Positions 4,001 to 28,570 of a stretch of DNA of 64,000 nucleotides are shown piece after piece. Under the pieces are notes generated by a model. That model did no database searches and had not been told where the DNA came from. It worked only from the letters and a program-made list of their open reading frames with translations. The stretch is from contig NZ_LT960612.1 of assembly GCF_900233005.1 (NCBI RefSeq), forward strand, positions 558,001 through 622,000. Direction: 5' to 3'. The DNA is from Vibrio tapetis subsp. tapetis. Its GTDB lineage: Bacteria > Pseudomonadota > Gammaproteobacteria > Enterobacterales > Vibrionaceae. Made by a program: the position numbers and the translations under genes. The stretch's first letter is position 1. Each line of letters opens with the position of its first letter.

Positions 4001-4512
4001 CATAGTCGTTCATCCACCCCTTCACTATCAAAAAGACGATGCCCGACTTCCACGATCACCACATGATCGTTGCTCCAAAATTTCAGGTATTGCTCGGTAT
4101 CGCTGTCTCCCAAATGCTTGTCCAAAACGGGCTCTAACCCGTTTTGTTGTAAAAAGTAGCTCTTGGCGTCTTTCTCTCCGCCGATCACCAAATACCACGG
4201 CAAGCTATACAGGCTGTCTAACTTACTGCGCCCACGGCCACGAATTTTCTTACTAGCCAGCTTAAATAGCTGCTGAATGACCTTGGTGTCTTGTTTGAGC
4301 AATAACTGTTGATCGTGTTGCTCTTTTGGTTGATGGCTTTTTTTACGTTGCTTGAACCACCACACCACGACCACCAGCAATACCAATGCAGCCAGTGCGG
4401 TAACACTGTATTTAACAAGGTTCATTTCTGGTTCTGGGTAATACCACCAGCAAAACGCAGCAGCTATTATCATTAGAGCTGCGAATAGCATCGCGACTGT
4501 TTTCTTCATCAT
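1057..4512 (-). CDS. tssM: Type VI secretion inner-membrane protein TssM (IcmF/VasK family)
   Basis: TssM spans the inner membrane and, with TssL and TssJ, forms the membrane complex that anchors the T6SS to the envelope. Two N-terminal membrane segments are visible (about residues 5-22 and 32-52), then a cytoplasmic domain, a third membrane segment near residue 405 and a large periplasmic region ending in a beta-rich C-terminal domain. The length of about 1150 residues is normal. The start is placed at 4512, one base after the tssL stop; an upstream in-frame start at 4551 would overlap tssL. The nucleotide-binding loop looks degenerate: residues 111-118 read GGEKDAKS rather than GxxGxGKS/T, so ATP or GTP binding may be lost. 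Confidence 0.95.
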   Translation of the reverse strand: MMKKTVAMLFAALMIIAAAFCWWYYPEPEMNLVKYSVTALAALVLLVVVVWWFKQRKKSHQPKEQHDQQLLLKQDTKVIQQLFKLASKKIRGRGRSKLDSLYSLPWYLVIGGEKDAKSYFLQQNGLEPVLDKHLGDSDTEQYLKFWSNDHVVIVEVGHRLFDSEGVDERLWDVLAHQLLKYRPRQGLNGVVSVIGCDRLLQGDRKARQKLSSIYQEAVLSMGSTLQLTLPVYSVFSKADTIADFVEFFESYSGCDVENPFGLTFPCDAQRRFDKHKFEAQSKALVKSMAEQQFELLRNISKEKSGSVIALPYQLRIFFERVNELLTDIGRENRVREAVWLRGAYLLSCGQKGNEHDLLTQVVADRAEFNSQSTREQFPSRRSYFSTRLFSHVILPESGITGVNQIRHMGYLAARSMMILLVIASLASVGLLLKDNWNQDEQWRADAMTQLRLYGVDIHRLENNYSLSDMVAVLNELRSVAAAGIEPKAWYQLVSTKQSDTAERIYSTYQEQLNVILLPKLEELISSELYVYVNLGNPSKVFEILRYYQMLFDKQQLNIDEMQRYLLDNLKDQGDVSSDDINVLALLIEDLFNSDYASRLEPNAALISVAANNLEGLSPERLIYARIKGLPQYRSQVDIRRQLGDKFDTSFEFSEGFHGYLIPEIFTKQGYSQLDLSAKSELLRRQLSEFKSIQGDMSGASITELTDLSKQIQRLYFADYIYYWKDLVNNIHIKQFNSPVEFAYALKAAREPVTSPVLDVLGAVVVNTTLAVEEQPDTRGNKRVASQLGLKKVAKGLSKADKINRAVGGKLIRLQPSFVVNEAFIGYANYINGTGKAGDSVPLDGLIQQFDSLNGYFDDALSSADPGKAMHAYALAHAAGSQDAIVLFQRQGSKAPNQVAKWTKNLAQQAWRQVVSGSVGYLNQQWDERVYQFYVAAIEGRFPFAKHGRGEVDLTDFASFFKPQGRVEQFIDEMLKPFVYWDNGTLKLNEVDGLTLPLSGQARNQLRQARKLSQTFFGPTGQELALKFALRASSMNTSVTQFQIREAESVFDYRHGPRVWTEVSWPTTGVEGYLTTNFYQGENRVATRSYTGQWALFRALFDGDSTKTATRLVRKLNYKLNDNRIVIDYTLRDSNQTLDKSLFTSFALPKHL

Positions 4513-4513
4513 G

Positions 4514-5656
4514 TTATTTCTGTGCTCTTCTAATCGTCGCATTGAGACCAAAACGAACGTTCAATTCATTTTTCAGTTTTCGGATCAGGGTGAGGTTGTC
4601 TCCGGCACGTAAGTAGAGCTCAATGCCGTGCTCTGTCTCACGCGTGAATGACTCGTAACCCGCTTTTTGCAGCTCCGAGACAAGACGTACAGCGTCGGAC
4701 GAACGAGTTAAAACGGCTAACACGACCTCCCATTGCTGCGCCACCGGCACAACTTGAGTGCTTTGTGAGGTTTCCGCCTCAGCAGTGGCTAATCCTATGT
4801 CCGATTCCGTACTGACATACACCAATTCGTTGTTGGCTTTTTTCAAATTAACGCCAGACATATCGATGCTGCTAAACTGCTGTAAAATCGGTTGGCTGCG
4901 GTTGAAATACCAATACTCAGACGCTGCATAAGCACTGCCAAGGCACAATGTGGCTAACGTCAACGTTTTGGGTAAACTCAACATCCGCCAAGGCCGCTTG
5001 CCTTCAATCAGTTCAGGTGTTTTCGGCACTGGTAAAACACTTTCACCACGATAATGACGAATGACGGTGTAAACCCGAGATTGGATCTCATGTAACTCAC
5101 TCTCATCTTCGTGACGGTAACGCCCTTTAAAACCCAGCATCAACAACACGTATTGCAGCTCTAAGAAATCCACCAATTTGGCGGGTTGCTGGCTGGCTTT
5201 GTCTAATAAAGAGAAAAACGCTTCGCCACCATTTCGTTGTGAAAATACCGAACTTAATAGCGAGTGATTTTCCCAGCGTGCGCGTTCGCCCCAACTGGTG
5301 TAGAGAATCGCCTCATCAAAGGCGGCACAAAGCACAAAACAGCTTTTATCAATGATGCTTGGATGGTAGTCCAAATAAAGGCCACGCTGACGGAACGCAG
5401 AAATCGCATCCAATAAACGTTGGCGGAATCGCTCAATATCCCTTGGTTCTCCTTGACGCGGCAAAGTCACTAAAATACCGAACAGCTCCGTTGCGCCATT
5501 GAGCAACGGGCAACTGTACACCGCCAAGTTATCAATAAGGCGCTCGGTTCCTGAAAGGTCGACCCCACTGTTTTTCAACCCTTGAGGTTTGGCTTTAGGC
5601 TGTTCCTGCCGGCGGTGAATTTCCACCGTCGGCTCTTCATTAAATAGTCCAGTCAC
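4514..5656 (-). CDS. tssL: Type VI secretion protein TssL (DotU family) with C-terminal SPOR-like domain
   Basis: TssL is the DotU-type inner-membrane partner of TssM. The conserved cytoplasmic DotU domain covers about residues 35-205 (for example CAAFDEAILYTSWG and LMLGFKGRYR). One membrane segment lies near residues 228-245, and the rest faces the periplasm. After a spacer rich in S, T, Q and V, the last 75 or so residues (starting WEVVLAVLTRSSDAVRLVSE) show a beta-alpha-beta-beta-alpha-beta pattern like a SPOR peptidoglycan-binding domain. Many TssL proteins end soon after the membrane segment, and others carry an OmpA-like domain. It lies 7 bases after tssK. Confidence 0.93.
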   Translation of the reverse strand: MTGLFNEEPTVEIHRRQEQPKAKPQGLKNSGVDLSGTERLIDNLAVYSCPLLNGATELFGILVTLPRQGEPRDIERFRQRLLDAISAFRQRGLYLDYHPSIIDKSCFVLCAAFDEAILYTSWGERARWENHSLLSSVFSQRNGGEAFFSLLDKASQQPAKLVDFLELQYVLLMLGFKGRYRHEDESELHEIQSRVYTVIRHYRGESVLPVPKTPELIEGKRPWRMLSLPKTLTLATLCLGSAYAASEYWYFNRSQPILQQFSSIDMSGVNLKKANNELVYVSTESDIGLATAEAETSQSTQVVPVAQQWEVVLAVLTRSSDAVRLVSELQKAGYESFTRETEHGIELYLRAGDNLTLIRKLKNELNVRFGLNATIRRAQK

Positions 5657-5663
5657 TGTTCAC

Positions 5664-6980
5664 CTACCTGATCACGTGGAATTCAACGTGGACGTCTTCG
5701 ATTCGCTCATCAATGTGCAAAGCGATCGGTTCGTCTTTTTTCACCAAGCGTTGCCATAAGTCCGATTTGGTATCCACCTCAAAATAAGCAGCATCATGTT
5801 TCGATTTAAGCTCGGAAGGAGCGTAAGGAAGATTGCGCAGCGCAACACCTGATAATGCGTTACGCACCAAAGCAGCAATGTCACTGTTGCCCGCCAGTTT
5901 CGTCGCTTTAGGAAATTCTTCGCTCAATCGTGATGCCCCTATTGGCGATGTGGCCACCAAAATGAAACGCCCTTGGTTATAAACGCTACGATCTTGCACC
6001 AGCGTTCTTAACAATCTGCGGCTCACAAACAACTGGGTATCCCACACAAGGCTTGTCACGTTATCAATTTGAACTTCACGAAGTAGAACCAACAACTCTG
6101 AAAATACGGCAGAAAACACGCCATACAGATCGTGTTGGTTCCACGTTGCAAACGACTTAGGCATCTTCCCTTCCAGCCCCTGCATTTGCCCCGCCATTGA
6201 TAAACATTCCAAGTAGAGCTGCTTAGTCAGGAACGTTGAATCTTCATTCCATTGCTGCAATTTTGGCATCCAAGCACCCAAGGCTTGTAGCCACAAGTAA
6301 TCACGCATTAACGCTTGGTAGCTCTTACTTCCATCTTCGGCTTGTAAACGGGTCGAGATAGCACGCGCGCGGTATTGCACTTGCGCGTACACATCCGCAA
6401 CGCAATCTTTCAGATAATTAGAAACACCAAAATGCAGGCTCTGTGGAACAAAGGCTTGATTTAAAATAACCGCCCCTTCTGATTTGTGCTCACTCACATC
6501 CGCGATGGCAATCAGGGTGTAATCTTGCAGCTCTTCGCCTTCTAACTTGAGTTCAATATTCAACTCGGCCAATTCAAGCGGTACAGGATCACTGTGCTCA
6601 CGGCTGGTATCAAAAACAGAGTGTTCAATCGAGGCATGTCTCAGCCGTTGATCCTCTCCGACATCAACCGCTCCAGGTCTGGTGACAGGAAGCGCCAAAT
6701 AGACTTTTTTACTATGGGTGTTTTTATCGATCTCTAGTATCAGGCTCTGATTGATCTCAAACGGCGTACCATCAGGAAAAATGCCTTTTGCTCGACGCAC
6801 GGCCACTTTGCCAATGTTCAGCATCGAGCGATCTAAATCCAATAGAGTTAAGCCAAAGCACTGTGGCACCATTTGACCAGCAAATTCACGAGTGAATGAT
6901 TCAACGTAACGCTCTTGCTGCTGAAAATGCTGTGGCGAAAGAAACATACCTTCGCTCCAAACCACTTTTTTATTGTCCAT
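5664..6980 (-). CDS. tssK: Type VI secretion baseplate protein TssK
   Basis: TssK trimers connect the T6SS baseplate to the membrane complex. The N-terminal shell-domain signature (VVWSEGMFLSPQHFQQQERY, residues 5-24) is typical of the family (ImpJ/VasE), as are the length of 438 residues and the C-terminal beta-rich end. It starts 2 bases after the tssJ stop and is followed closely by tssL, the usual tssJ-K-L order. No anomalies were seen. Confidence 0.97.
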   Translation of the reverse strand: MDNKKVVWSEGMFLSPQHFQQQERYVESFTREFAGQMVPQCFGLTLLDLDRSMLNIGKVAVRRAKGIFPDGTPFEINQSLILEIDKNTHSKKVYLALPVTRPGAVDVGEDQRLRHASIEHSVFDTSREHSDPVPLELAELNIELKLEGEELQDYTLIAIADVSEHKSEGAVILNQAFVPQSLHFGVSNYLKDCVADVYAQVQYRARAISTRLQAEDGSKSYQALMRDYLWLQALGAWMPKLQQWNEDSTFLTKQLYLECLSMAGQMQGLEGKMPKSFATWNQHDLYGVFSAVFSELLVLLREVQIDNVTSLVWDTQLFVSRRLLRTLVQDRSVYNQGRFILVATSPIGASRLSEEFPKATKLAGNSDIAALVRNALSGVALRNLPYAPSELKSKHDAAYFEVDTKSDLWQRLVKKDEPIALHIDERIEDVHVEFHVIR

Positions 6981-6982
6981 GA

Positions 6983-7444
6983 CTAATCCTCTTCGCCTGT
7001 GACCGATAAATTAACGCCATCTAATTGGATATTGATGACCGATGAACCCAACACCACAGGCTGGTAAATAACTTTATTTTTTGCTTCACGGTAATCGGCG
7101 AACCCTGCGATCACGCCTATGTACTTAGTCTCAGAGGCCATAGGAACGACTTCTTTTCGGTTCTCACTTGGCAAGACACTGGCCAATTGACGCGCAATCA
7201 ACAATTCGGCTTTCAACACACCTTGGGCATCGCTGTATAACTGAATGAAGTCGGCTTGATTGAACGCCTGACTGTCACTAAGCTGGTAAATTCGGACTTC
7301 AACCGGAGACGGTTTGCCTTCCACATTTGGATTTATGTTGGCTGCAGCTTGAATATTGATCACCAATTGAGGTGCTAAGTCGTTGCCCCAAAAACTGCAC
7401 CCTGAAAGCAACGTGGCCAACAAAAGTAAACCGATCTTTCTCAT
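6983..7444 (-). CDS. tssJ: Type VI secretion outer-membrane lipoprotein TssJ
   Basis: A 153-residue lipoprotein. The signal peptide MRKIGLLLLATLLSGC has a lipobox LSGC, with Cys16 the predicted lipidation site. The mature part carries the transthyretin-like beta-sandwich features of TssJ/VasD (a VEVRIYQLSDSQAF strand-loop, and IGVIAGFADYREA). TssJ binds the periplasmic end of TssM and tethers the complex to the outer membrane. It overlaps the FHA gene by four bases (ATGA), indicating translational coupling. Confidence 0.95.
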   Translation of the reverse strand: MRKIGLLLLATLLSGCSFWGNDLAPQLVINIQAAANINPNVEGKPSPVEVRIYQLSDSQAFNQADFIQLYSDAQGVLKAELLIARQLASVLPSENRKEVVPMASETKYIGVIAGFADYREAKNKVIYQPVVLGSSVINIQLDGVNLSVTGEED

Positions 7445-8373
7445 GAGTTTTGCCCTCCATCTAAGTTACGCTGTAAGCGCATCGCATCATGAAAATAGGC
7501 ATGAAACTTTATTTGCCAGTCACGATTTTCTACTTGGCGAGTGAAGTAGCGTTTGTACATGTCCCAGTACTTGGGTTTACCGCCCCAAAACGTCGGCGCA
7601 GAAAGGTCATCAAACATGGTTTCAACAGCTTGCGGAGCGATGTCGGACAACAGGCGGTTTAGAGCCATTTCTAGCGCTTTGTCCGTTTGCTGCTGCAAGC
7701 GCTCTTCCGCATGCTGATAAGCGGCTAACTCGTGGCGAGATGAGGTAGTGTTATGAACGAGCGCTTCCATTGGAGTAGGCAAATTTGCGTGCAAATCTGT
7801 GTCTGCTAAAGGATCATCATCGATCGCAGAAAAGCTTAAGTTGAACTCGTTAGTTTCAACTCGACGTGGCGCAACATCACCTAGAAACGGGTCATCATCT
7901 ACAACGTCAAAAGCCGATGCCGTAAAATCCGGTTCAAGCTCGGTTTCAGTAAAAGGCGTCGCTAATGGCTCGTTATCGCTGCTAAACGGATCGTCGCCAA
8001 ATAGGCCTTGACGCAGGTTGGGCTCTTCACTTTTAACGCGTGCCTGTTCGGGAATAAAACACGAGACCAACAAACGGTAGCGGCCAACATCCAAGACGTC
8101 GCCATCACTTAATGTCGATTGGTTGCCTTTGCCTAACGGCGTATCTGAACCGTTGATATACAAACCATTCGTACTGTTATCCAGCACTTGATAACCACGG
8201 GAAGTTTTCTTGATCAACGCGTGAGAACTTGACACTTCTCTGCGAGCGTCACTCAACTGCATCGTCGCCCCAAAAGCGCGACCAATTTCGCCTCCTTCAT
8301 CTGGAAACGATTTATTCCATTCTGAAATGCTTTCGCCATCAGGAGAGCTAATAATTCTGATTGATAGAGGCAT
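7441..8373 (-). CDS. tagH: FHA-domain protein of the T6SS (TagH/Fha-like)
   Basis: A 310-residue cytoplasmic protein. The FHA domain covers about residues 20-110, with the phosphothreonine-recognition features GRAFGATMQLSD, VSSSHALI and DNSTNGLYING. A variable acidic middle (about 120-200) is followed by a C-terminal helical domain (about 225-300) typical of T6SS-associated FHA proteins (type VI FHA C-terminal domain). Such proteins take part in threonine-phosphorylation control of assembly with a PpkA-type kinase; no kinase or phosphatase gene is seen here, though one may lie beyond the left edge. It lies directly downstream of a periplasmic binding protein gene (1 base apart). Confidence 0.92.
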   Translation of the reverse strand: MPLSIRIISSPDGESISEWNKSFPDEGGEIGRAFGATMQLSDARREVSSSHALIKKTSRGYQVLDNSTNGLYINGSDTPLGKGNQSTLSDGDVLDVGRYRLLVSCFIPEQARVKSEEPNLRQGLFGDDPFSSDNEPLATPFTETELEPDFTASAFDVVDDDPFLGDVAPRRVETNEFNLSFSAIDDDPLADTDLHANLPTPMEALVHNTTSSRHELAAYQHAEERLQQQTDKALEMALNRLLSDIAPQAVETMFDDLSAPTFWGGKPKYWDMYKRYFTRQVENRDWQIKFHAYFHDAMRLQRNLDGGQNS

Positions 8374-8374
8374 A

Positions 8375-9082
8375 TTATTTACCCTTACATTGTGCGTTAG
8401 CGCGGTTAAATTCAGTTAAAAATTGCGGGTACTTTTCGGTAAATGACTTCGAAAAATAGACGCCTAAAGGCTGAGATTTCATCCGTGTTTTGGAGATAGC
8501 TCGGTAGCTTATGCCCATTTGTTTGATCGTCTCTTCAATCACGGCATCGTTGCCTAAGATGGCTCCAACCCCTCCGTTCAACATCAGTTTCAGCATGGCT
8601 TTAGCGCTGCGCGGCTTCATCGACACTCGATAGCCATTCTTTTGCAGCCAAAACCACTTGTTTGAACCAAATAACGCGGCGACTTCCACTTGATTTTTGA
8701 ACATCGCGCTGTTGACATCAGTGGCATCAGAAAGCGAAAACCAGCTCCAATTTTGCTCTGCCACGGCATCAGACGTGATCGCGTATTCGTCACGCTTGTT
8801 GTTGTTGTGAGAGGCTAAGAAAAATCCATGCTGGCTGCCGACTTCCGTCAACAGCTGGGCACGATCCCACTTAGTCATAGTGAATTGATATGGCTGGCGC
8901 ATCACCCGCATCACGCATTTGATTTTTTCAATGCCAACCCCTTTCATCTGTCCATTCTCTTGATACTGATAGGGAAACCATTCTTGGGTCGCTAACAACA
9001 AACGCTCTGGACGATTGAATGCGTGAGCAACGTTCAAGCTGCTCATCACCAGTAATAGACACATCACTATTGACGGCTTCAT
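8375..9082 (-). CDS. Periplasmic solute-binding protein, family 3 (SBP_bac_3-like), T6SS-embedded
   Basis: A 235-residue protein with a signal peptide cleaved probably after AHA (residues 1-21). The mature sequence begins with the family 3 binding-protein pattern (LLLATQEWFPYQYQENGQMKGVGIEKIKCVM) and keeps a bilobed layout. This type binds amino acids or similar small molecules, or acts as the ligand sensor of a signalling protein. It overlaps the upstream binding-protein gene by four bases and runs straight into the FHA gene, so it is cotranscribed with T6SS structural genes. No ABC permease or ATPase is nearby, so uptake by a classical ABC transporter is unlikely; sensing is an alternative. 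Confidence 0.8.
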   Translation of the reverse strand: MKPSIVMCLLLVMSSLNVAHAFNRPERLLLATQEWFPYQYQENGQMKGVGIEKIKCVMRVMRQPYQFTMTKWDRAQLLTEVGSQHGFFLASHNNNKRDEYAITSDAVAEQNWSWFSLSDATDVNSAMFKNQVEVAALFGSNKWFWLQKNGYRVSMKPRSAKAMLKLMLNGGVGAILGNDAVIEETIKQMGISYRAISKTRMKSQPLGVYFSKSFTEKYPQFLTEFNRANAQCKGK

Positions 9083-10221
9083 GGCTTGGTTTTCTCCATA
9101 CTCATACCGGCGGCTCGGATCATCTCGCCATCTTCGGCATAGATATCGCTGGCCATTTCGATCAAAACAAAAGGCAATTTGGCGTTAAGGCGGTCGGCTT
9201 GTTTAAAGCTGATAGAGATGTCCGGTGGCGATAATACGCCGACAGGCAACGCACTCGGTGACTTGCCATCACGCAATATTTGAATGCCATACAGCGCCGC
9301 TTGGTGAGCATTGTTTTCAAATCCGACCCCCACCGACATCAACGCACTGTTTGCGCTGCCATTAACGGCATCAGGTACCACAGTTAACAAAGGGGCTTGC
9401 TCCGTATAGGCGTAGATCTCTTCCATGCGCTCTAGCAAACTGGAACTGCCCGTTAACCAAAGAATCGAATGTTCTAGTTGAGGATCGGCTTGCTTAATCG
9501 CTAACATTTGCTGCTCCATAACCTCGCCTAAGCCCCCATTAGGGTCGTTTTCGTCGACTTCGAAGCCAAACACCGTAATGCCCGACTTCTCTGCTTGCGC
9601 TTTGAGGGGCAAATACTGAGTTACGTAAGCGCTGGTATTGCTTTTAGCGTATAAAATGCCGATTTGGCGCAACTCTGGATTAAAGCGTCTGAGGAAGCTC
9701 AACGTGATATCCGCTGGCAAATTAAGCGACGTATAAGCAAAGTTATTACCACGGGTACGGTAGTTATCGGTTAAACCAAGTAACACGGGATCTTTGGCAT
9801 TCACCGATACCACAGGTAAGGTTCCACCCGCATAAACATCATGCAATGCAACGGTCGCCTTAGAGCCAACGACATAGATCAAACTGGCATTACGCTCTGC
9901 TTGTTTTAACCAAAGACGCAACGCGCTAGGTGTCTCAGGAAGCAAAAACACTCGAAATGACGTTGCACTCAGCTCCTGCTTATACACTTTGAGCATGGTT
10001 GCAATTGCGGTGTCATAAGAGCGAGCTTTACGTGATACCAACACCCAAACACTCGGTGTTTCACGCACAGGAAGAAATGCTACTGAGTGCTCACTGCTAC
10101 TTACCTGCCAGGATGACGTTTGGTTTAAGTCCTGACCTAACCAACTCGGCCATTCCGCTCGTAGCTGACAAGACAGTAAAGCGACCACTAAACACAGACC
10201 GTAAATAGTGCGTTTTATCAT
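9079..10221 (-). CDS. Periplasmic binding protein, ABC_sub_bind (PF04392)-like
   Basis: A 380-residue protein with an N-terminal signal sequence (residues 1-22, MIKRTIYGLCLVVALLSCQL). The fold resembles the PF04392 / periplasmic-binding-protein type I group: a lobe with IYVVGSKATVALHDVY, then the segment IGILYAKSNTSAYVTQYLPL, and a second lobe with SISFKQADRLNAKLPFVLIE. Proteins of this group bind small organic ligands such as aromatic amino acids, but the ligand cannot be read here. Four-base overlaps with both the transporter gene before it and the family 3 binding protein after it show tight coupling. No permease or ATPase genes accompany it. Confidence 0.78.
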   Translation of the reverse strand: MIKRTIYGLCLVVALLSCQLRAEWPSWLGQDLNQTSSWQVSSSEHSVAFLPVRETPSVWVLVSRKARSYDTAIATMLKVYKQELSATSFRVFLLPETPSALRLWLKQAERNASLIYVVGSKATVALHDVYAGGTLPVVSVNAKDPVLLGLTDNYRTRGNNFAYTSLNLPADITLSFLRRFNPELRQIGILYAKSNTSAYVTQYLPLKAQAEKSGITVFGFEVDENDPNGGLGEVMEQQMLAIKQADPQLEHSILWLTGSSSLLERMEEIYAYTEQAPLLTVVPDAVNGSANSALMSVGVGFENNAHQAALYGIQILRDGKSPSALPVGVLSPPDISISFKQADRLNAKLPFVLIEMASDIYAEDGEMIRAAGMSMEKTKP

Positions 10222-12416
10222 GCTGCTACCTCACTGGCTTTTTGACGGTCCAATAGCAACATCAAGACACTGGCAAAAATGAAGAACACACCAATGGCCC
10301 AAAATGCATACAAGTGACCCAATGACGCCAGTAATTGACCCACCACAATCGCACCTGCAACATGGCCGAATCGTTCCAAAAATCGATACGTTGCTGCAAC
10401 AGAATTGGCATTGTGCCCTTCGGTTGCTTTCACCACGTGCGTCACAACCGGCGCATTAATCAAACCATGCGCCACGCCCATTACCAGCATTGAAATTGTC
10501 GCCAGTGACACCACAAATTCCGCTTCAACCAATGAAAAGGCAGCGCCTAACACCCCAAGAGACAATGCCGCAACGGCATTACCTAAACACAAGGCCCACT
10601 TGCTTGAACCAAATCGGTCGATAAGAGGCGAAACACGGCCACTGATAAACAGCACAGCAAACGCATAAGCCATGAGCACTTGGCCTATGCTTTCTTTCGC
10701 CACGCCTTTATCACTCAATAACAAAGGCACGGCGAAAGACACCACACCCGTTAGCATCATTTTGGTTGGCATACCAACTAACAACATGGTGCGCATAAAC
10801 GCAGGCACTCGAATCAAGGTTGCAGACTCGTGCATCATCCCTTTAATGTTATCAAGCAAGCTGTTTTGCCCGGTACACACCGCTTTCATGGATGGCAGTA
10901 ACATGCCGAACATCAACATCAAGCCTCCAATCAACGCTGATAACGCGAAAATGCCCTGAATACCTAATGTGTCTGCCAACAAAGCGCCGATTGCGGCTCC
11001 TGAAATAAAGCCAGCGTTAAAGCAAAAGACGATGATTCCAGCCGCTTGTGTTTTGTTCGACTGATCGCTAAAGCGCAGAATGTAGCCTTGCACAGCAATG
11101 AAGATGATGGCTTGCCCTACCCCTGAGATAAAACGCGCCACTAAAACGCTGGTCAAATGGCTGTCATAAGCTAAAAAGGCGCAGCCTAAGCTGGAAAGAA
11201 TCACCCCTGCACTCAACACTCGTCGAATATCAAACATTTCTATCAAGCGAGAAGCGGGCAACAATGTCGCAGCAAAGCCAACAAAATACAGGGTAAAAAA
11301 GTATGAAGACCACGCTGCACTGCCACCGTTATCCAACGCAATTTGCGTCAGGTATTGAGGCAAAACAGGCGCCATCAGGGACTCCATCAGGACGGTAACG
11401 AGCAAGAGCGGTTTCACTTGTGCCAAGACCACTTCTGAATGGCTCTGGTTTTCTGAGCGACTCAGCAAACGAATGAAAGCAAAACAGATGAAGGCACAGC
11501 CGGCAAAAAGAATGGCAAAGTTTTTCAGTATTTTGAGTAATTGAGAAAGCAGCACCTTAGGGTGGAAAGCAATCGTCACCTTGTTGCCACGCTCATCTGA
11601 AATTGGGAATTCCGCCATCCCTTCGACAGACATCAACGCTTGCTGTGCCTGACTGCTGGCAATTGTGCGCGCTTGCTGTTCAACAACAATGCTTGATACT
11701 TCTTTATTGGTTTGACGAAAGCCATCTAGCATTTCATCTACACCACTGATACGTTGCGGAGAAATACCCCACACCAAAACAGGAGCTAAACGCTGTGTCA
11801 CAATGCTAGCCATCGAGTTTGCTTTACTCTCAAGGCCCGATTTATAGAGCGCACCAACCATCAACATCACGCTTAATGACATAGTCAAAAAGACAATGCC
11901 AAACGCGGTAAAGTAGATGGCTCGATTATGCGCTCGCAATACCATGAATACGAACAAGCCGACTAAGATCCCCACCAGCCAAATCATTGGCACAAAGCGG
12001 GCACTGATCTCGCGCTGAACTTTTTCGTCACTGACAACAATCTCTAGCCGCCCCACTTGGGTAAACTTGTTGTGAAGCGCGATGCTAATCACGCTGCCTT
12101 CAAATTCACTGTCGGTGTAACGGTAAAGCTCTTGCTGTCCCGAGATCATTCGAATGTCGACCACCGCCTTATCAGACAATGCGATTGGTGCTAGCACCTT
12201 TTCTAGGCCAGCAATGTCATGTAATGGCACACCAGAACTTAAGATCTGCTCGATCCCCATTCTTGCGGCGTCAGTTTGCGCGATTACCGCATCGCGGCTT
12301 TGCTGCTGATAACTCTTTAGCGCCTGCGCATACCCCACCACAAAAATCAGGGATAAAGACAGCACCACAAGTAGGGCGCCCAGCAGAAGTCGACTGTGTT
12401 GCTTAATCGTATTCAA
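10218..12416 (-). CDS. MFS transporter with two N-terminal periplasmic sensor-like loops
   Basis: A 732-residue membrane protein. A first membrane segment (about residues 9-31) is followed by a periplasmic loop of about 110 residues, two membrane segments (about 143-192), a second loop of about 100 residues and another membrane segment near 297-316. After that, from about residue 330, comes a 12-helix major facilitator part (SRLIEMFDIRRVLSAGVILSS and FISGRVSPLIDRFGSSKWAL are MFS loop motifs). The two loops resemble Cache/CHASE-like sensor domains. It follows the ATP-grasp gene by 9 bases and overlaps the next gene by four. The substrate is unknown; the context suggests export or uptake of the ATP-grasp product or its precursor. 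Confidence 0.85.
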   Translation of the reverse strand: MNTIKQHSRLLLGALLVVLSLSLIFVVGYAQALKSYQQQSRDAVIAQTDAARMGIEQILSSGVPLHDIAGLEKVLAPIALSDKAVVDIRMISGQQELYRYTDSEFEGSVISIALHNKFTQVGRLEIVVSDEKVQREISARFVPMIWLVGILVGLFVFMVLRAHNRAIYFTAFGIVFLTMSLSVMLMVGALYKSGLESKANSMASIVTQRLAPVLVWGISPQRISGVDEMLDGFRQTNKEVSSIVVEQQARTIASSQAQQALMSVEGMAEFPISDERGNKVTIAFHPKVLLSQLLKILKNFAILFAGCAFICFAFIRLLSRSENQSHSEVVLAQVKPLLLVTVLMESLMAPVLPQYLTQIALDNGGSAAWSSYFFTLYFVGFAATLLPASRLIEMFDIRRVLSAGVILSSLGCAFLAYDSHLTSVLVARFISGVGQAIIFIAVQGYILRFSDQSNKTQAAGIIVFCFNAGFISGAAIGALLADTLGIQGIFALSALIGGLMLMFGMLLPSMKAVCTGQNSLLDNIKGMMHESATLIRVPAFMRTMLLVGMPTKMMLTGVVSFAVPLLLSDKGVAKESIGQVLMAYAFAVLFISGRVSPLIDRFGSSKWALCLGNAVAALSLGVLGAAFSLVEAEFVVSLATISMLVMGVAHGLINAPVVTHVVKATEGHNANSVAATYRFLERFGHVAGAIVVGQLLASLGHLYAFWAIGVFFIFASVLMLLLDRQKASEVAA

Positions 12417-12425
12417 CCTTGGCTC

Positions 12426-13580
12426 CTAAACGTCGCCAATCAGGTCGAATTGTTCATTCAAACAATGCGCCAATGCCATTGGACGTTTGGCTTTCAAAAA
12501 CGACAAACGATTAAAAACCAATGATTGAATGAGGTCGGTATAGCTCATCCCTTCACGTTGTAAATCATGACAAACTAAGCTGACCTTATCGCCTTCCGGA
12601 CGCTTTAGATCGGGCTTAGGATTGGTCTCTAACACATACAAATTGCCGGCGTTATCCATACGCATATCGACTCGAACCAAGGTTTGTAAACCCAATTGGC
12701 GGTAGATTTTCTGGCCAATTTCCGCCAATTGATCTCGCAATGGCTGTTCGGTAACGGCAATCAGTCGGTCTTGCGTAATGGGTTTAATATCCATCGAGGT
12801 GAAAATAGGTTCATCGGCGCCCAATACACGTTCGGTGATCGAAAAAGCCATCGGTTTGTCTGACTGAGTCAATTCGCCTTGTTTAAAGGTGTACTCTCCT
12901 GCCACTGCCACGACAAATTCACGCCCGCCAAGAAACGGTTCAATCATCACGATGTTATTACTCGCTTGACGCACTTTCTCAACCGTACTTGCCAGTTCAC
13001 TGCGATCAAACACTGGGTACACATGAATAGAAGCTCGCCCAGAAACCGGCTTAACAATGAACCCTTGTGGGAAACGACGTGCAATGTCGTCCAGTGCGCG
13101 CTGGTTGCTTTCACTCGCAAAATCTTCGTCGATACCAATAGTAATGAAAGGCGCGGTGGGCAGGCCGGCTGCTTTTATTTCATGTTTAAATAGGTGCTTA
13201 TTGTCTAACAGGCCTGCTGTCATTGGTGAGTGACCCACATACGGCACGCCCAACATTTCTAGCATTGAAGGTAAGTGACACATAGAATCAAAACCTTGCA
13301 GACCACCGCTGTTGGTGATCACCAAATCTACTTGCTCCTGACGCAGGGTTTCCGCCAGATAAATATCTTCGGCCAATACCGTAACCAGCTGGAAGCCGGA
13401 TTCACGCAGCGCGTTAGCAATATCGTGTGCCACGGCTTCATAAGTTTTGGTTGAACGAGGGCTCAGGTTTTCAAAAATAAAACCTCGAGGCTGTGCTTTG
13501 TCTCCACCGTGGATCACAGCAATTTTCAATTTGTTGCGAATCCAATTCAGTTGTGCAGGCGAAAAAATAAAGTTGGTCAT
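12426..13580 (-). CDS. ATP-grasp ligase related to D-alanine--D-alanine ligase, T6SS-embedded
   Basis: A 384-residue cytoplasmic enzyme. An N-terminal Rossmann-like domain (KIAVIHGGDKAQPRGFIFEN) is followed by ATP-grasp domains with the pattern LLDNKHLFKHEIKAAGLPTA, the ATP lysine loop FIVKPVSGRASIHVYP and the metal-binding end VLETNPKPDLKRP. This fits the D-Ala-D-Ala ligase group, which joins a carboxylate to an amine using ATP. The serine-rich loop usually read as GSSxGV is altered (GRASIHV), so the substrate may differ from D-alanine. It sits between clpV and the sensor-MFS gene. It is probably not the cell's essential Ddl, which lies in cell-wall operons. Confidence 0.85.
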   Translation of the reverse strand: MTNFIFSPAQLNWIRNKLKIAVIHGGDKAQPRGFIFENLSPRSTKTYEAVAHDIANALRESGFQLVTVLAEDIYLAETLRQEQVDLVITNSGGLQGFDSMCHLPSMLEMLGVPYVGHSPMTAGLLDNKHLFKHEIKAAGLPTAPFITIGIDEDFASESNQRALDDIARRFPQGFIVKPVSGRASIHVYPVFDRSELASTVEKVRQASNNIVMIEPFLGGREFVVAVAGEYTFKQGELTQSDKPMAFSITERVLGADEPIFTSMDIKPITQDRLIAVTEQPLRDQLAEIGQKIYRQLGLQTLVRVDMRMDNAGNLYVLETNPKPDLKRPEGDKVSLVCHDLQREGMSYTDLIQSLVFNRLSFLKAKRPMALAHCLNEQFDLIGDV

Positions 13581-13712: not shown

Positions 13713-16334
13713 TTAACTGATATCAATAACAAACTGGCCCTGTTGTACAGAAACAGAAACCGAATGAATTGGCTGAGACATACTCATACGAACGATGCAT
13801 TTGTTCGCCAATTCAGGCATCAATTGTCGGTTGATCAATTGCTCAATCGCACGGGCACCCGTTTCTGGCGACAGGTTAAGGCTGACCAAAAGATCCACCA
13901 CTTGCGGGTCATATTGGAAAGTAGCGCCATAATGCGATTTCACACGTTTTTCGATTCGGCGTAGCGACAATTGCGCAATTTTTCCCATCTCTTCATCATT
14001 CAATGGGAAATATGGCACTATGGTCGCGCGACCCAAAAACGCAGGTTTGAAGAACTGTTGTAGCTCAGGGAAAATGGCTTGAGTCAGATCAGGAATCGAC
14101 GGACGGACGGTCGCACAGGCGTTCACCACCGCGCTGTCTGCCGCATTGGATGTCATAATGATGATGGTGTTGCGAAAATCTATCTCACGCCCTTCGCTAT
14201 CTGAAATCGAGCCTTTATCAAAGATTTGGTAGAAAATATCGTGCACACCTGGGTGTGCTTTTTCCATTTCATCCAGTAATAGCACCGAATAAGGATTCCG
14301 ACGCACGGCTTCTGTCAGCACGCCGCCCTTACCGTAACCCACGTAACCTGCAGGCGATCCCAATAGCATCGAGACTTTGTGCTGCTCTTTAAACTCGGTC
14401 ATGTTGATGGTGGTAATGTTGCGCTCGCCACCATAAAGCAGATCAGTCAAAGCCAAGGCGGTTTCCGTTTTACCAACGCCACTTGGGCCACACATCAGGA
14501 ACACGCCCACCGGTTTACGCGGATCCGTTAACCCAGCTCGTGCCATACGAATCGCTTGTGAGATTTCAGCAATGGGTGTGATTTGCCCAATGACTCGTTC
14601 ACCAATGTGATTTTCAAGGTGCATTAGACGCTCAACTTCCTGTTTGAGCATGTTGCCAACCGGTATCCCAGTCCAAAGCGAGATCACTTCAGCCACGGTT
14701 TGTTGGTTAACTTGTGGTAACACCAAAGGTTGTTCGCCTTGCATTTCGCGCAGCGCATTCATCTTGCTTTTCAGCAACGCTTTTTCTGGGTTTTGCTTTA
14801 GATCTTCCCCAGCGACAAACAAAGCATCCAACTGAGTTTGAAGCTCGATGATCTCGTTAACTAACGACTTCTCTTGCTCCCAACGCAGCTCAATCGCTTG
14901 ATGCTCGCTTTGCAATGCCGCCAGTTTTTGTTCAACAGCGTCACGACGCACGTCATCAATCGACCAAAGTGCCGCTTCGTGATTGAGTGTCTCGATTTCA
15001 TTTTCAACGTAACGAATTTGCTCAGCAATGGCTTCCAACTGGCGCGGCGCAGCACTTTGGCTCAGGCCAATGCGAGAACACGCCGTATCAAGTAAGCTGA
15101 TGGCCTTATCGGGTAGCTTACGCTCAGGCAGGTAACGTACAGAAAGCGCGACAGCAGCATCAATCGCTTCTTGCATCACTTTAACGCTGTGGTGTTTTTC
15201 TAGGCTTTTTTTCACGCCGCGTAGCATGTGAACCGCGTCTTCTTCACTTGGTTCACCAATAGATACGACTTGAAAACGTCGGGTTAACGCCGCGTCTGAC
15301 TCAAAATACTGCTTATATTCTGCCCACGTTGTTGCCGCGATAGAACGGAACTCGCCACGCGCCAATGCCGGTTTTAGGATATTGGCAGCGTCGTTTTGTC
15401 CAGCGGCACCGCCTGCACCGATCAAGGTGTGAGCTTCATCGATAAACATGATGATTGGCGTCGCCGACTGTTTGATCTCGTTGATGACGTCTTTAAGACG
15501 GTTTTCGAACTCGCCCTTAATACTTGCGCCCGCTTGCAAAGCGGATAAATCCAAACTGCGTAGCTCAACGTTAGCAAGCGCAGGAGGCACATTGCCATCA
15601 ACAATTTGTTGTGCGAGACCTTCTACAATCGCCGTTTTACCCACGCCCGGGTCGCCCACTAAAATAGGGCTGTTTTGACGGCGGCGACACAGAATGTCCA
15701 CCGCTTTACGGACTTCATCACCACGACCAGAAATAGGATCAAGCTCGCCGTTACGAGCGCTCTGCGTCAGGTTTTGCGAGTATTTATCCAGTGCTGGCGT
15801 GTTGCCATCGACGAACTCGCTATTGACCATGCTTGGGGAAGTCGGCTTTTGTGCGCTAGGAGCAGTATTTGCCAACGATTGAGAGCGTAACCATTCAGAT
15901 GACAAAGCGTTAAGCCAATGAGAGAGTGAGCCGTTGTATGCGCCTTGTTCGATTCTCTGCTTAAGCACCATGAGAAGATGATATTCATTGACCGACAGTT
16001 GCTTATGGTTAAGCGAGGCGATCATCCATGCGTCTTTTAACAGTTCAACTAAAGAAGGGGATAACGATGGCGATGTATTATTACCCTGTGCAAGCCCCGC
16101 CAAGTGATTATTCAGTTGCTCGATTAGCCCTTGCGGTGCTACACCCGCTTGCTGTAATGCTTGTTGCCAACCCATGGATGAGTTTTGCAGCAATTGAATG
16201 AACCAGTGCTCTAACTCTATGGCAAAATGACCACGATTCACGCACTCGCCAGCCGCAGATTCCAACGACGATTTTAGGTTTGGGGTTAGCCGAGTTACTA
16301 GGCTTTGTAATTCAATATTGATCATTTTATTCAC
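13713..16334 (-). CDS. tssH: T6SS sheath-disassembly AAA+ ATPase ClpV (TssH)
   Basis: ClpV strips contracted TssB/TssC sheaths so that the subunits can be reused. The 873-residue protein has an N-terminal Clp-N domain (about 1-160), a first AAA+ domain with Walker A GDPGVGKT and Walker B IIMFIDEAHT, a coiled-coil middle region, and a second AAA+ domain with Walker A GPSGVGKT and sensor motif TGARAIEQLI near the end. It overlaps tssG by eight bases. All ATPase motifs are intact. Confidence 0.97.
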   Translation of the reverse strand: MNKMINIELQSLVTRLTPNLKSSLESAAGECVNRGHFAIELEHWFIQLLQNSSMGWQQALQQAGVAPQGLIEQLNNHLAGLAQGNNTSPSLSPSLVELLKDAWMIASLNHKQLSVNEYHLLMVLKQRIEQGAYNGSLSHWLNALSSEWLRSQSLANTAPSAQKPTSPSMVNSEFVDGNTPALDKYSQNLTQSARNGELDPISGRGDEVRKAVDILCRRRQNSPILVGDPGVGKTAIVEGLAQQIVDGNVPPALANVELRSLDLSALQAGASIKGEFENRLKDVINEIKQSATPIIMFIDEAHTLIGAGGAAGQNDAANILKPALARGEFRSIAATTWAEYKQYFESDAALTRRFQVVSIGEPSEEDAVHMLRGVKKSLEKHHSVKVMQEAIDAAVALSVRYLPERKLPDKAISLLDTACSRIGLSQSAAPRQLEAIAEQIRYVENEIETLNHEAALWSIDDVRRDAVEQKLAALQSEHQAIELRWEQEKSLVNEIIELQTQLDALFVAGEDLKQNPEKALLKSKMNALREMQGEQPLVLPQVNQQTVAEVISLWTGIPVGNMLKQEVERLMHLENHIGERVIGQITPIAEISQAIRMARAGLTDPRKPVGVFLMCGPSGVGKTETALALTDLLYGGERNITTINMTEFKEQHKVSMLLGSPAGYVGYGKGGVLTEAVRRNPYSVLLLDEMEKAHPGVHDIFYQIFDKGSISDSEGREIDFRNTIIIMTSNAADSAVVNACATVRPSIPDLTQAIFPELQQFFKPAFLGRATIVPYFPLNDEEMGKIAQLSLRRIEKRVKSHYGATFQYDPQVVDLLVSLNLSPETGARAIEQLINRQLMPELANKCIVRMSMSQPIHSVSVSVQQGQFVIDIS

Positions 16335-17313
16335 TCGCGGTTAATGGCATTTCTACGAATTGCTGTTGATTGGTACGACTATTCATCCAAGCAGATTGAC
16401 CGACTTTCAGGCCGCTTTCAGCACTACTCGCGAGCTTAACGCGCGGTAAATAACGACTGTCTACTTTCATGTACAATTTGTATTTAATGTTGATTCCCAT
16501 GTAACTTCTTACTAGGTGCTCTATCGCTCGAATCATCTTTTGGTCACTTCGAATACTCAAATAATGACGGTAGTTCTTTGGGCACAATTTGATATTGAGT
16601 TTTTGACCAACCATTGGCGCATGTTTGCCCAACAATGCGCCCATTCCGAGCTGGCGGTTTTGGCCACGCCCCCCTAATTGAGTCAGAGAACACGGAGTTA
16701 ATGGCTGATATTCAAGGCCACTCGGTTCAATCACGAACTGCGCACCAAAATAATCCTCTAGCAGGTGCTTTAACGCATGAGGGCAAGTTAGCTTTAACCC
16801 CAACAAGCCGCTGTACTGAATCAAGTGTGATTTTGGTACTACGTCAGTGGCTTCATGTTGACCACCAAAGCTCGACAACATGGTGGTCACAGACTGTCTA
16901 TGCTGATTCCAACTGAAGGTTTCTTCTTCTAACTGGCTGCATAGGTCGTGCTTAAGCTCTGTCTGACAATACAAACGAAAATAGCGATTATTAAAGCTAT
17001 CGAAAAAGTCCAGTGCCGCCTCGTCACCAAGATCAAACTGGGCGGTCAAAGCCTGACGGTACATAGTACGAGGCATAACGCCGCGACTGCCCGCTAACGC
17101 CATCAATGGTGTTTTCATCACGTAGTGGCCTTGGATATCGCTCGAGACACTGGTCACTTGTGTTTGATAATGCGCAGGAAGAGATTCCGCACTAAAGCGT
17201 AATTTAGGACGAATGCCACGATGCTCCGCGCGATGCTTGAACATCTGCCACGCTTTATCGAGTTCTACATGAAATTGACCCGTCGCTAGGCGCTCTAAAG
17301 CAGACTTTTGCAT
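16327..17313 (-). CDS. tssG: Type VI secretion baseplate protein TssG
   Basis: TssG (ImpH/VasB family) forms the baseplate wedge with TssF, TssE and TssK. The 328-residue length and the region HYVMKTPLMALAGSRGVMPR followed by FFDSFNNRYFRLYC are family signatures. The gene overlaps the end of tssF by 19 bases and clpV by eight, the normal tssE-F-G-H order. Confidence 0.95.
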   Translation of the reverse strand: MQKSALERLATGQFHVELDKAWQMFKHRAEHRGIRPKLRFSAESLPAHYQTQVTSVSSDIQGHYVMKTPLMALAGSRGVMPRTMYRQALTAQFDLGDEAALDFFDSFNNRYFRLYCQTELKHDLCSQLEEETFSWNQHRQSVTTMLSSFGGQHEATDVVPKSHLIQYSGLLGLKLTCPHALKHLLEDYFGAQFVIEPSGLEYQPLTPCSLTQLGGRGQNRQLGMGALLGKHAPMVGQKLNIKLCPKNYRHYLSIRSDQKMIRAIEHLVRSYMGINIKYKLYMKVDSRYLPRVKLASSAESGLKVGQSAWMNSRTNQQQFVEMPLTASE

Positions 17314-19076
17314 CCAGCTCTCCTTGGGAAGGTCATGAACTGGCCATCTTGTCCTTCAAGTTTAATTTCAACCTGAGTAAAGCTGTTAAAGCCGGCAAAA
17401 TAGGAGAAAAATCGGTCAAGCAGATGGCTGAACAAAGTGACGCCACCATAAATGTTGCTGCCATCAAGCGTCACGGTAATTTTGGTACCATAAGCAAAAC
17501 ACGTTTTGCCCGATACGCGGATAGGAGCAACGACTTGCTCTTGCTCGATACCAACTATCGACTCGATGTACACATGGTTTTGCGAACTCTGATTATGGTT
17601 ATAAAGCTCGAACACGTTTTTTAATGTGGCTTTAGGATCATCGGTTCCCAAGATTGCGTGGTAGTTAAAATGCAAATGGCAAAGCAACGACCAGACGTTT
17701 CTGTTGGCGTCTTTACTGCGCATCGGTAAAGATGGACGACGCAACAATTCCATTTTTGCTGGAATGGTCAAAGACTCTCGGCACTCCACTTTACTGGTGA
17801 CCGGCAGATAGCCCGCTTTAATGCCGTCACTTACCGTGCCATTAACCAACCAAGTACGAGGCTCACTTTGAGCACTGATATGATCAAGGTCTGCCACTTT
17901 TAGGCTGCTCTCCAACCCACCACTTTCGTGCAATGTTTGCACCAGCTGCCAACGCAAACCCGAGTGGTTTGGCGAGAATTTCTCACCATAAACTTGGGCA
18001 ATACTGACAGGGGTGGCTTGGGTTACATCCAAAACGTCATCAACTGAAAACAGCTCTAAGTCATGATCTTGGCTCGCATCAAGCACGATTGGATAGTGCT
18101 TCTTAAAGAAGTCAATTTCGACAGCATCAGACACCGCTTGGTGCAAGTTAACAATCGGGGTGGTAAACAGGCAAAAGTGTTCTTCGCTCAAGGTTCTCGC
18201 CAAGTCGACACTCAATTCATCAATGAACAGTTGCAGCTTAAATTGATGGCCGCGAACTCCTTTCAAAGCATCAGAGAAATCAAATCGGAATCCGTTAAAA
18301 CGTTCTGAGAACATGAAGAATTCAGTCAATAACTTGAAGCCACCAAAGCTGGCTGCTTGATACGGTAATATGGTGTCGTCAACGTCGAAGCCGACGGGTT
18401 GCATCGCGTCTCGACCTAATTCAGATCGAGAGCCTTCACTCGCCACGCACACTTGAGCGGTGCCTTGTGACAACAGGTCGTACAATCGCAAAGCAAAACT
18501 ACTGTCACCCTTTAGGTGTACTTTAAGGCTATCAATATCAAGTTCAGATAATTCAACACCCGAGTCGATGGCTGAAATAGTAATTTCTATCAAAGCTTTG
18601 GCATGTTCGGCGCCACGAGGTTTCGCAAATTCGAATGGGGCAAACGCAACGTTCACTTTTTCAATTTTTAGTGGGTACAAAGCAACGTTTTCAGTGGTAC
18701 GAAAAATCGCACTTTCACCTTGTTCATCACGTAATTCGAACTCAGTACCGACTGGGATCTGGTGTGTCGCGTTCGCATCTTCATTGACAACAAAATCAAG
18801 CAAGCTGTACGACGGAATGGGTCGTAAATAATGAGGAAACAGTAAACGAATCAGGCTCTCTGTGAGCTCAGGAAACGACTCATCTAGACGCTGTTGAAGC
18901 TTGCCATTAAGCAGCGCCACGCTTTCTATCAATCGCGTAACTTGGGGGTCATCAATCCCATCTTGGTTGATCCCAAGAGAATTGGCCGCACCAGGATGAC
19001 GGGCAGCGAACTGCGACGCTTCATCACGAATGAAACGCAGCTCTTGTTCGAAATAGGAAAGCAAAGTATCAGACAA
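17295..19076 (-). CDS. tssF: Type VI secretion baseplate protein TssF
   Basis: TssF (ImpG/VasA family), 593 residues, is the main wedge protein of the baseplate. The N-terminus YFEQELRFIRDEASQFAARH followed by DPQVTRLIESVALLNGKLQQ and SLIRLLFPHYLRPIPS is the family hallmark. It overlaps tssE by eight bases. No defect was seen. Confidence 0.97.
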   Translation of the reverse strand: MSDTLLSYFEQELRFIRDEASQFAARHPGAANSLGINQDGIDDPQVTRLIESVALLNGKLQQRLDESFPELTESLIRLLFPHYLRPIPSYSLLDFVVNEDANATHQIPVGTEFELRDEQGESAIFRTTENVALYPLKIEKVNVAFAPFEFAKPRGAEHAKALIEITISAIDSGVELSELDIDSLKVHLKGDSSFALRLYDLLSQGTAQVCVASEGSRSELGRDAMQPVGFDVDDTILPYQAASFGGFKLLTEFFMFSERFNGFRFDFSDALKGVRGHQFKLQLFIDELSVDLARTLSEEHFCLFTTPIVNLHQAVSDAVEIDFFKKHYPIVLDASQDHDLELFSVDDVLDVTQATPVSIAQVYGEKFSPNHSGLRWQLVQTLHESGGLESSLKVADLDHISAQSEPRTWLVNGTVSDGIKAGYLPVTSKVECRESLTIPAKMELLRRPSLPMRSKDANRNVWSLLCHLHFNYHAILGTDDPKATLKNVFELYNHNQSSQNHVYIESIVGIEQEQVVAPIRVSGKTCFAYGTKITVTLDGSNIYGGVTLFSHLLDRFFSYFAGFNSFTQVEIKLEGQDGQFMTFPRRAGCKSLL

Positions 19077-25680: not shown

Positions 25681-25709
25681 ATTGATATTTATTAAAGAAC
25701 GCGGTGGTT

Positions 25710-28264: not shown

Positions 28265-28273
28265 GATAATACT

Positions 28274-28570
28274 ATGTTACCAGCAGCTCGAGCCACCGAC
28301 ATGCATATGTGCCCGATGCAAACTCCGGCAATCGTTCCCATTCCACACGTCGGCGGCCCATTATTACCAATGCCAAGTACTGTGCTTATTGGTAACCTTC
28401 CGGCCGCAACCTTAGGCCAAATGTGCGTGTGCGTCGGACCTCCAGATAGCGTTGTAAAAGGCAGTGCGACGGTACTTATCAATAATAAACCAGCAGCTCG
28501 CATGGGCGATCTGACTGCTCATGGCGGCACGATCATTATGGGAATGCCTACGGTACTCATTGGCGGATAG
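28274..28570 (+). CDS. PAAR-motif spike-tip protein
   Basis: A 98-residue PAAR protein that sharpens the VgrG tip. It carries the PAAR-like repeats PAARATDMHMCPM and PAARMGDLTAHGGTIIMGMP with histidines and cysteines that bind the zinc ion. It has no C-terminal extension, so it delivers cargo only through adaptors or is purely structural. It converges with the hydroxylase gene, with 38 bases between them. Confidence 0.93.
   Translation: MLPAARATDMHMCPMQTPAIVPIPHVGGPLLPMPSTVLIGNLPAATLGQMCVCVGPPDSVVKGSATVLINNKPAARMGDLTAHGGTIIMGMPTVLIGG

Follow-up and report, generated by a model that had tools for sequence, protein, structure and literature searches.

Gene content of the clpV-FHA slot

The DNA analysed here, referred to as the window, is a stretch of 64,000 nucleotides (C2:558001-622000) from the 5.7-Mb genome of Vibrio tapetis subsp. 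tapetis (G000). It contains an operon for a type VI secretion system (T6SS) in which four genes are located between those for ClpV and an FHA protein. They encode an ATP-grasp ligase (12426-13580; 384 amino acids, aa; Pfam Dala_Dala_lig_C, E = 2.2e-21), a sensor-fused transporter of the major facilitator superfamily (MFS; 10218-12416; 732 aa with a TTG start; MFS_1, E = 4e-32) and two periplasmic binding proteins, PBP1 (9079-10221; 380 aa; ABC_sub_bind, E = 1.3e-11) and PBP2 (8375-9082; 235 aa; sub-threshold SBP_bac_3). The block is bordered upstream by the gene for ClpV/TssH (13713-16334; TIGR03345, 1144 bits) and downstream by the gene for an FHA/TagH-like protein (7441-8373), the constant downstream neighbour of PBP2. 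All of these genes are on the minus strand. The ligase stop is separated by 9 bases from the MFS start, 4-base overlaps join the MFS gene to PBP1 and PBP1 to PBP2, and a single base lies between PBP2 and the FHA gene. An earlier reading made from the sequence alone, below called the original prediction, had singled out this block; its gene set, coordinates, strand and junctions all matched on re-reading, and its domain calls (ATP-grasp ligase, sensor-fused MFS, two periplasmic binding proteins) were borne out by Pfam and fold evidence.

The minus-strand operon begins with TssA (23540-24922) and continues with Hcp, TssB, TssC, a second TssC-like protein, TssE, TssF, TssG and ClpV, followed by the ligase, the sensor-MFS, PBP1, PBP2, the FHA protein, TssJ, TssK, TssL and TssM (1057-4551), the last four genes spanning 1057-7444. 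T6SS components that were not profile-scanned, including these four, were named after annotated orthologues on plasmid p2 of V. crassostreae and p251 of V. tubiashii. No ABC permease was recognised, as had been claimed, and no ATPase either, among the open reading frames (ORFs) listed for the first 30.5 kb of the window, where some proteins were profile-scanned and the rest inspected by eye. Nor was one found beside the binding proteins among the annotated features around the block on the two plasmids, and an ABC importer was therefore rejected.

Correspondence to vtsABCD

The block is the vtsABCD set of V. anguillarum and Aliivibrio wodanis, first named in 2009, and the suggestion of an undescribed system must be withdrawn. 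In the window the four genes stand in the same order, between clpV and the FHA gene, in a T6SS3-like operon. We assigned vtsA, vtsB and vtsC to the ligase, MFS and PBP1 genes by order, and vtsD by the A. wodanis annotation, where the PBP2 homologue is called 'periplasmic solute-binding protein VtsD'. The full set is present in the V. anguillarum locus L016, with proteins 62-80% identical to ours, and no essential difference was seen. The same four genes are annotated in the same slot on plasmid p2 of V. crassostreae LMG 22240 (L038) and on p251 (L039). Weber and colleagues reportedly constructed in-frame deletions of vtsA-H, and VtsA-D are said not to have been linked to the T6SSs studied until then.

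The T6SS3 of A. wodanis has been likened to the clusters of M. viscosa, V. anguillarum and A. salmonicida, and VtsA-D of V. anguillarum are said, citing Weber et al. 2009, to function in stress response, transport and hcp expression, with no role in virulence (PMC8861277). A signal-sensing role for the vts T6SS is attributed to Weber et al. (PMC7273116), and Hcp is reported to modulate VanT (PMC3352281). In biofilms of V. tapetis CECT4600, a cluster of 19 genes, b0557-b0575, was upregulated 1.9- to 138.9-fold, with TssC as b0571, TssB as b0572, Hcp as b0573 and VgrG as b0575 (PMC6313714). The window likewise holds 19 genes from TssM to VgrG in matching positions, and by gene counting PBP2, PBP1, the MFS and the ligase would be b0562-b0565.

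The T6SS3 of V. proteolyticus is described as anti-eukaryotic and said to be active, and V. crassostreae and V. anguillarum are listed among species with T6SS3-like clusters (PMC9545535), which we infer to be the clusters examined here. The T6SS of p251-like plasmids was classified as subtype i5 and placed near the V. crassostreae system (PMC12824646). According to Ray et al. 2017, the V. proteolyticus slot differs between T6SS2 (tags 01820-01800) and T6SS3 (04890-04880), with three and two genes, respectively, by tag numbering. The two slot genes of T6SS3 contrast with the four in the window and resemble genome G137, where we found the ligase and PBP2. The T6SS2 of V. parahaemolyticus was considered as the parent system and rejected: clpV (VPA1028) is located between hcp2 and tssG there, so that the slot does not exist.

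Predicted functions of the four proteins

An identical ligase (100%) is encoded by V. tapetis subsp. quintayensis, and the protein has 1086 relatives. Among the best 120 of these 1086, which were listed, those below about 52% identity were cyanobacterial, alphaproteobacterial, of other origin or metagenomic, and several carried the name 'D-alanyl-alanine synthetase'; the cyanobacterial relatives among the matches listed were 44-50% identical. A plasmid search with one cyanobacterial relative returned six Vibrio plasmids only. Beyond the V. tapetis genome itself, no further gammaproteobacterial match was obtained in a sample of 369 genomes (E ≤ 1e-50), a thin sample considering that a Sansalvadorimonas relative was among the listed matches.

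Against the Ddl model TIGR01205, the ligase scored 93 bits, below the family cut-off of 245.65, whereas a Ddl encoded elsewhere in the same genome (C2:1724932) scored 320.8 bits. Residues R303, D305, E318 and N320, the counterparts of the nucleotide- and Mg-binding residues of Ddl, are present in 24 of 24 rows of the ligase alignment. At the column of the N-terminal glutamate in the Ddl motif GGxSxE, only 2 of the 24 rows have Glu, and the NTxPGMT loop of Ddl, its D-Ala loop, is replaced by NPKPDL in all 24. Other motifs of the family are NPRSxKTY, DNKHxFK and FTSMDxKxIT. The enzyme thus resembles Ddl and VanA in its ATP-grasp fold family and nucleotide/Mg residues and differs in its score, its N-terminal Glu column and its D-Ala loop. 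On the family cut-off and the active-site columns we reject a true D-Ala-D-Ala ligase and a Ddl moonlighting in wall synthesis. On sequence grounds we regard the protein as a Ddl-like ATP-grasp enzyme of a separate family, and since the nucleotide/Mg residues are kept while the Glu and the D-Ala loop differ, it is probably active with a substrate other than that of Ddl.

We gathered 87 homologues of the MFS protein. Its model (alignment of 50 rows; pLDDT 81.3) shows two mixed alpha/beta domains at approximately residues 60-130 and 225-285 with membrane helices flanking them, and the N-terminal half is predicted to form two extracytoplasmic PAS/Cache-like domains. Fold searches covered residues 324-730, modelled as a 12-helix fold closest to VMAT2, NorA, SotB and MdfA and only slightly less close to other MFS types; this placement points to a DHA1-type exporter.

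PBP1 scored 48 bits against the TrpX equivalog model NF041285 (cut-off 390), and its sequence places it as an ABC_sub_bind protein of a family related to TrpX rather than as the equivalog. The nearest solved chains by sequence were 3lft, 6hni and 3lkv. The match of PBP2 to SBP_bac_3 (PF00497; E = 0.0012) was 19.0 bits, below the gathering cut-off of 26.4, and a precomputed PF00497 match is present on some of its homologues. The PBP2 model (alignment of 68 rows; pLDDT 94) is closest to Arg/Lys/His- and Gln-binding proteins (ArtJ, GlnH and similar; ArtJ 2q2a, E = 2.3e-15, TM = 0.62), a predicted amino-acid-binding-protein fold. Its residue R97 is present in at least 90% of rows and aligned to an Arg of ArtJ (E = 0.011). 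Relatives of PBP2 at about 28-36% identity are found away from T6SS homologues, so that the PBP2 superfamily is not T6SS-specific. One such stand-alone gene, for a protein of 240 aa, is in the V. tapetis genome itself (C2:379539-380240, in L162); the 20 kb read there contained no T6SS homologue.

The kinship of PBP1 with TrpX and the ArtJ/GlnH-like predicted fold of PBP2 make the sensing or handling of a small amino-acid-like molecule a likely role of the four genes. This agrees with the original prediction in so far as it proposed that a small peptide-like molecule is made or sensed. Its hint at a modified wall fragment fares worse, given the score of the ligase below the Ddl cut-off, the altered Glu and D-Ala loop and the separate Ddl in the genome.

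Distribution of the slot genes among Vibrio T6SS clusters

The TssK of the window was searched against 148 Vibrio genomes (E ≤ 1e-60), which yielded matches in 46 genomes and 51 loci. These loci split cleanly into 11 at ≥65% TssK identity, labelled T6SS3-like by inference from the literature listing, and a distant sister group of 40 at 37-42%. The clpV-FHA slots of all 51 loci were read by tblastn (E ≤ 1e-4), with L011, identical in contig coordinates, standing in for G092.

PBP2 precedes the FHA gene in 50 of the 51 clusters. The MFS and PBP1 genes were both present in 37 loci and both absent from 14 (Fisher p = 7.7e-13), and the ligase gene in 9/11 T6SS3-like and 0/40 distant loci (Fisher p = 1.8e-8), both tests treating the loci as independent though they are not. 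The full four-gene set was found in 8 of the 11 T6SS3-like loci; the remaining three had the ligase and PBP2 (G137), PBP2 only (G087) or none of the four (G027), where clpV was also not found in the stretches fetched. A second, distant cluster of G137 has a three-gene slot, matching the V. proteolyticus description. In the distant group, PBP2 was located before the FHA gene in 40/40 loci, accompanied in 29 by an MFS protein of about 850 aa and an ABC_sub_bind protein (identified from three of each group scanned or compared), while 11 kept PBP2 alone. The slot is thus layered, with a near-constant PBP2, an MFS/PBP1 pair that comes and goes, and a ligase confined to one cluster type. In the open literature searched, beyond which other papers may describe them, we found no account of this layered make-up or of the free-standing cassette described below, and these two features are what is new here.

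The four genes had been treated as one unit, a view that does not hold across the sister clusters. The synteny expected for related clusters was recovered among the T6SS3-like loci and in none of the 40 loci of the wider family. None of the four genes is known to belong to the T6SS core in T6SSs generally, as had been stated, whereas in this lineage PBP2 is near-constant.

A search with the ligase identified matches in 9 of the 148 Vibrio genomes at E ≤ 1e-30. With the ligase as query we also fetched 27 loci, therefore chosen for having it, from Vibrio, Photobacterium, Moritella and Enterovibrio; three of them are contigs of one draft genome, SWAT-3. The order ligase-MFS-PBP1-PBP2-FHA-TssJ on one strand was observed in 27/27, with full-length ORFs for all four genes and a 4-base overlap of MFS and PBP1 in every locus, and PBP1-PBP2 spacings ranging from -4 to +2. 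The recurrence of order, open frames and overlap indicates that the arrangement is not due to chance. The gap between ClpV and the ligase was checked in 12 loci, picked for having a gap plus two without; in 10 of these (L014, L024-L027, L029, L032-L034 and L037, from Photobacterium, Moritella and one Vibrio) it contained one to three extra genes for proteins of 295-397 aa. In the SWAT-3 draft, the three contigs carry near-identical copies of the cluster (L018, L019, L020), two of them with interrupted T6SS genes.

A free-standing ligase-MFS-PBP1 operon

Ligase searches outside the class of V. tapetis covered a phylum sample of 398 genomes (E ≤ 1e-50) and 289 genomes from the class of G787 (E ≤ 1e-80). 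Relatives were found in 10 genomes: G787, G563 and G518 (loci L126-L128), six others (L139-L144) and G992, whose two ligase genes are at contig ends and were left out of the readable loci. In 9/9 readable loci the ligase, MFS and PBP1 genes were located in one order on one strand, as in the window, with identities in L128 of 30% for the MFS and 32% for PBP1. Unlike the window block, these operons lack PBP2, and neither inspection by eye nor tblastn with the TssK and ClpV of the window revealed a T6SS gene in their flanks. We found no published name for the operon and no papers on a sensor-MFS with a ligase in the open literature. The host class is probably Alphaproteobacteria.

The next listed ORF on one side was a signalling gene in 9/9 loci. 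In L126 and L127 it follows PBP1 directly and in L128 it precedes the ligase, and in all three it encodes a GGDEF-EAL protein; elsewhere its product is an adenylate/guanylate cyclase with dCache (L139), a histidine kinase (L140, L141, L143 and L144) or a GAF-only protein (L142). Twenty flanking proteins, picked by eye, were scanned. The other flank has metabolic genes, such as acyl-CoA dehydrogenase (L126), dihydroxy-acid dehydratase (L142, L143) and others, and further flanking genes were metabolic or without assigned function.

A reverse search of 260 genomes from that class with the free-standing MFS gave 9 matches, eight with the ligase operon and one, in G1071, without it; G992, if part of that sample, yielded no MFS match. 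In the 18 kb of G1071 that was read there is no ligase; PBP1, a SpoIIE phosphatase, a TauD-family oxygenase and the MFS form one operon with 4-base overlaps at each junction. A divergent gene (L176 2026-3153) encodes a 375-aa protein that matches only the double sensor half of the MFS (27% identity over 239 columns), has no Pfam or NCBIfam match and adjoins HATPase and SpoIIE genes. From this arrangement, the sensor half and the enzyme of the cassette look exchangeable.

The mean MFS identity was 29% between the window type and the free-standing type (72 pairs) and 20% between the window type and the distant T6SS type (132 pairs). Similarly, PBP1 was 32% identical to the free-standing type over 381 columns and 22% to that of one distant T6SS over 269 columns. 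These figures indicate that the window cassette and the free-standing operon have a common origin, and that the slot of the sister clusters is occupied by another, more remote MFS-PBP1 pair. Distances among 21 of the 27 loci, six near-duplicates having been dropped, were correlated without a formal test, giving 0.90 for ligase and MFS, 0.70 for ligase and ClpV and 0.84 for ligase and TssF. In a FastTree phylogeny of 24 ligases, eight from Vibrio, Aliivibrio, Photobacterium, Psychromonas, Grimontia and Thaumasiovibrio, including those of the window and L041, grouped with a support of 0.992.

A proposed signal-input block for T6SS3-like systems

We consider it somewhat better than an even bet (about 0.55) that vtsABCD is the signal-input block of T6SS3-like (i5) systems and consists of two pieces, PBP2 and a mobile ligase/sensor-MFS/PBP1 cassette, which together tune the T6SS by transport-coupled extracytoplasmic sensing of amino-acid-like ligands. 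PBP2 would be a periplasmic sensor resembling amino-acid-binding proteins, tied to the T6SS lineage by its place beside the FHA gene. The ligase may make or modify an amino-acid-like compound by ATP-driven amide formation, the DHA1-type MFS would move it, most likely outward, and PBP1 and the two extracytoplasmic MFS domains would read it outside the inner membrane. This reading, together with PBP2, may raise or lower T6SS production or assembly, possibly via the FHA protein and a small Ser/Thr kinase encoded near tssM. DHA1 carriers mostly export, and for this reason we favour a circuit in which the ligase product is exported and read back by PBP1. G137 lacks the MFS-PBP1 pair and the sister clusters lack the ligase, so each can be dispensed with, and the block may instead purely sense an outside amino acid. 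The Ser/Thr kinase gene, near TssM in V. tapetis and, by annotation, directly adjoining tssM on the V. crassostreae plasmid, makes the FHA protein a possible meeting point.

Several observations weigh against this signal-input reading. No cytoplasmic output domain was recognised in any block protein, the sensor domains of the MFS had no convincing match to a Pfam family, and R97 of PBP2 is a putative ligand-binding arginine, assigned by motif to holding an amino-acid carboxylate. In G137 a 4-base overlap joins PBP2 directly to the ligase, MFS and PBP1 being absent, and in 29 sister clusters MFS and PBP1 are retained but the ligase is not, so that one strict circuit cannot account for every case. 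PBP1 distances followed those of ClpV (0.83) and FHA (0.82) more closely than those of the MFS (0.78) and the ligase (0.72), which does not speak for PBP1 as part of a travelling unit within vibrios. Among the free-standing loci, metabolic genes lie on the other flank, and the 9/9 count of signalling neighbours is uncorrected for their background rate. The phenotypes cited are all literature statements.

The separate three-gene operon beside signalling genes suggests a plug-in chemical sensor. A bolder and less likely version of the signal-input reading is a make-export-read cassette, in which the ligase makes a small amide, the double-sensor MFS releases it and the TrpX-like PBP1 reads it back; present in Vibrionales and another class of Pseudomonadota, the cassette would plug into c-di-GMP enzymes, a cyclase, kinases and a partner switch, and would have been docked onto a marine-vibrio injection system via PBP2 and FHA.

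A pathway that makes and exports a secreted small peptide-like compound alongside the T6SS, with the binding proteins serving in recovery or self-protection, appears unlikely. Ligases and MFS efflux carriers occur together in bacilysin clusters, and the conserved nucleotide/Mg residues, the exporter-type fold and the joint travel of ligase and MFS would all fit, yet there is just one candidate biosynthetic enzyme, the free-standing copies are flanked on one side by a signalling gene and 29/40 sister T6SSs retain MFS and PBP1 without a ligase.

A front end analogous to TagQRST-PpkA-Fha1 of Pseudomonas aeruginosa is slightly more doubtful still. Here, PBP2 and MFS/PBP1 would detect envelope stress or contact and trigger firing post-translationally via kinase and FHA in a threonine phosphorylation pathway. 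The two systems, compared by protein family, share periplasmic input genes near FHA and kinase, and the constancy of FHA after PBP2 (50/51) and the kinase near or adjoining tssM are in its favour. P. aeruginosa has the ABC pair TagST and the lipoprotein TagQ where the window has an MFS and binding proteins; the Pfam matches of the four proteins include no ABC domain, inspection by eye showed no phosphatase beside the kinase, and the published statement points to hcp expression instead (PMC8861277). Least probable is that the genes are passengers, a nutrient- or amino-acid-handling cassette inserted in the operon and merely co-transcribed: the ligase-MFS-PBP1 set is incomplete or absent in 3/11 T6SS3-like loci and the V. 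proteolyticus T6SS3, said to be active (PMC9545535), has a two-gene slot (Ray et al.), but the genes are full-length at the same slot in 27/27 ligase-selected loci from several genera, a second, distant MFS-PBP1 pair (20% MFS identity) occupies this slot in sister clusters, and VtsA-D are reported to affect hcp expression (PMC8861277).

The signal-input reading makes vtsABCD a candidate for the outside signal input of T6SS3-like systems, and the free-standing relatives open the ligand question to purified proteins. For T6SSs of this type, both action on host immune cells and a plasmid location have been reported, and Cohen et al. name an activator, Ats3, and a repressor, H-NS.

Neighbouring genes

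Upstream of tssA, on the opposite strand (25704-28570), are genes for a VgrG-like protein, a DUF6931 protein and a PAAR protein. On p251, the annotation upstream of the T6SS cluster (L039 33-4020; p251 14355-18342) names an aromatic amino acid transporter and a peptide-binding protein, both of which would fit the amino-acid theme.

Beyond TssM (L040), a 333-aa protein without Pfam or NCBIfam match (9945-10946, reaching window position 946) is followed by the Ser/Thr kinase (9261-9938; 225 aa; Pkinase, E = 1e-13) and a 358-aa orphan (7927-9003). The 333-aa and 358-aa orphans look like candidate cluster-edge effectors, and one type of the extra proteins between ClpV and the ligase in other loci resembles the 333-aa protein by eye. 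An ORF for a group II intron-type reverse transcriptase, identified by eye, is located near the cluster edge (L040 5848-7131; C2:553848-555131). A second i5-type T6SS is encoded about 20 kb beyond the TssM end of the operon (L085; C2:522500-538500), and its clpV-FHA slot contains PBP2 alone.

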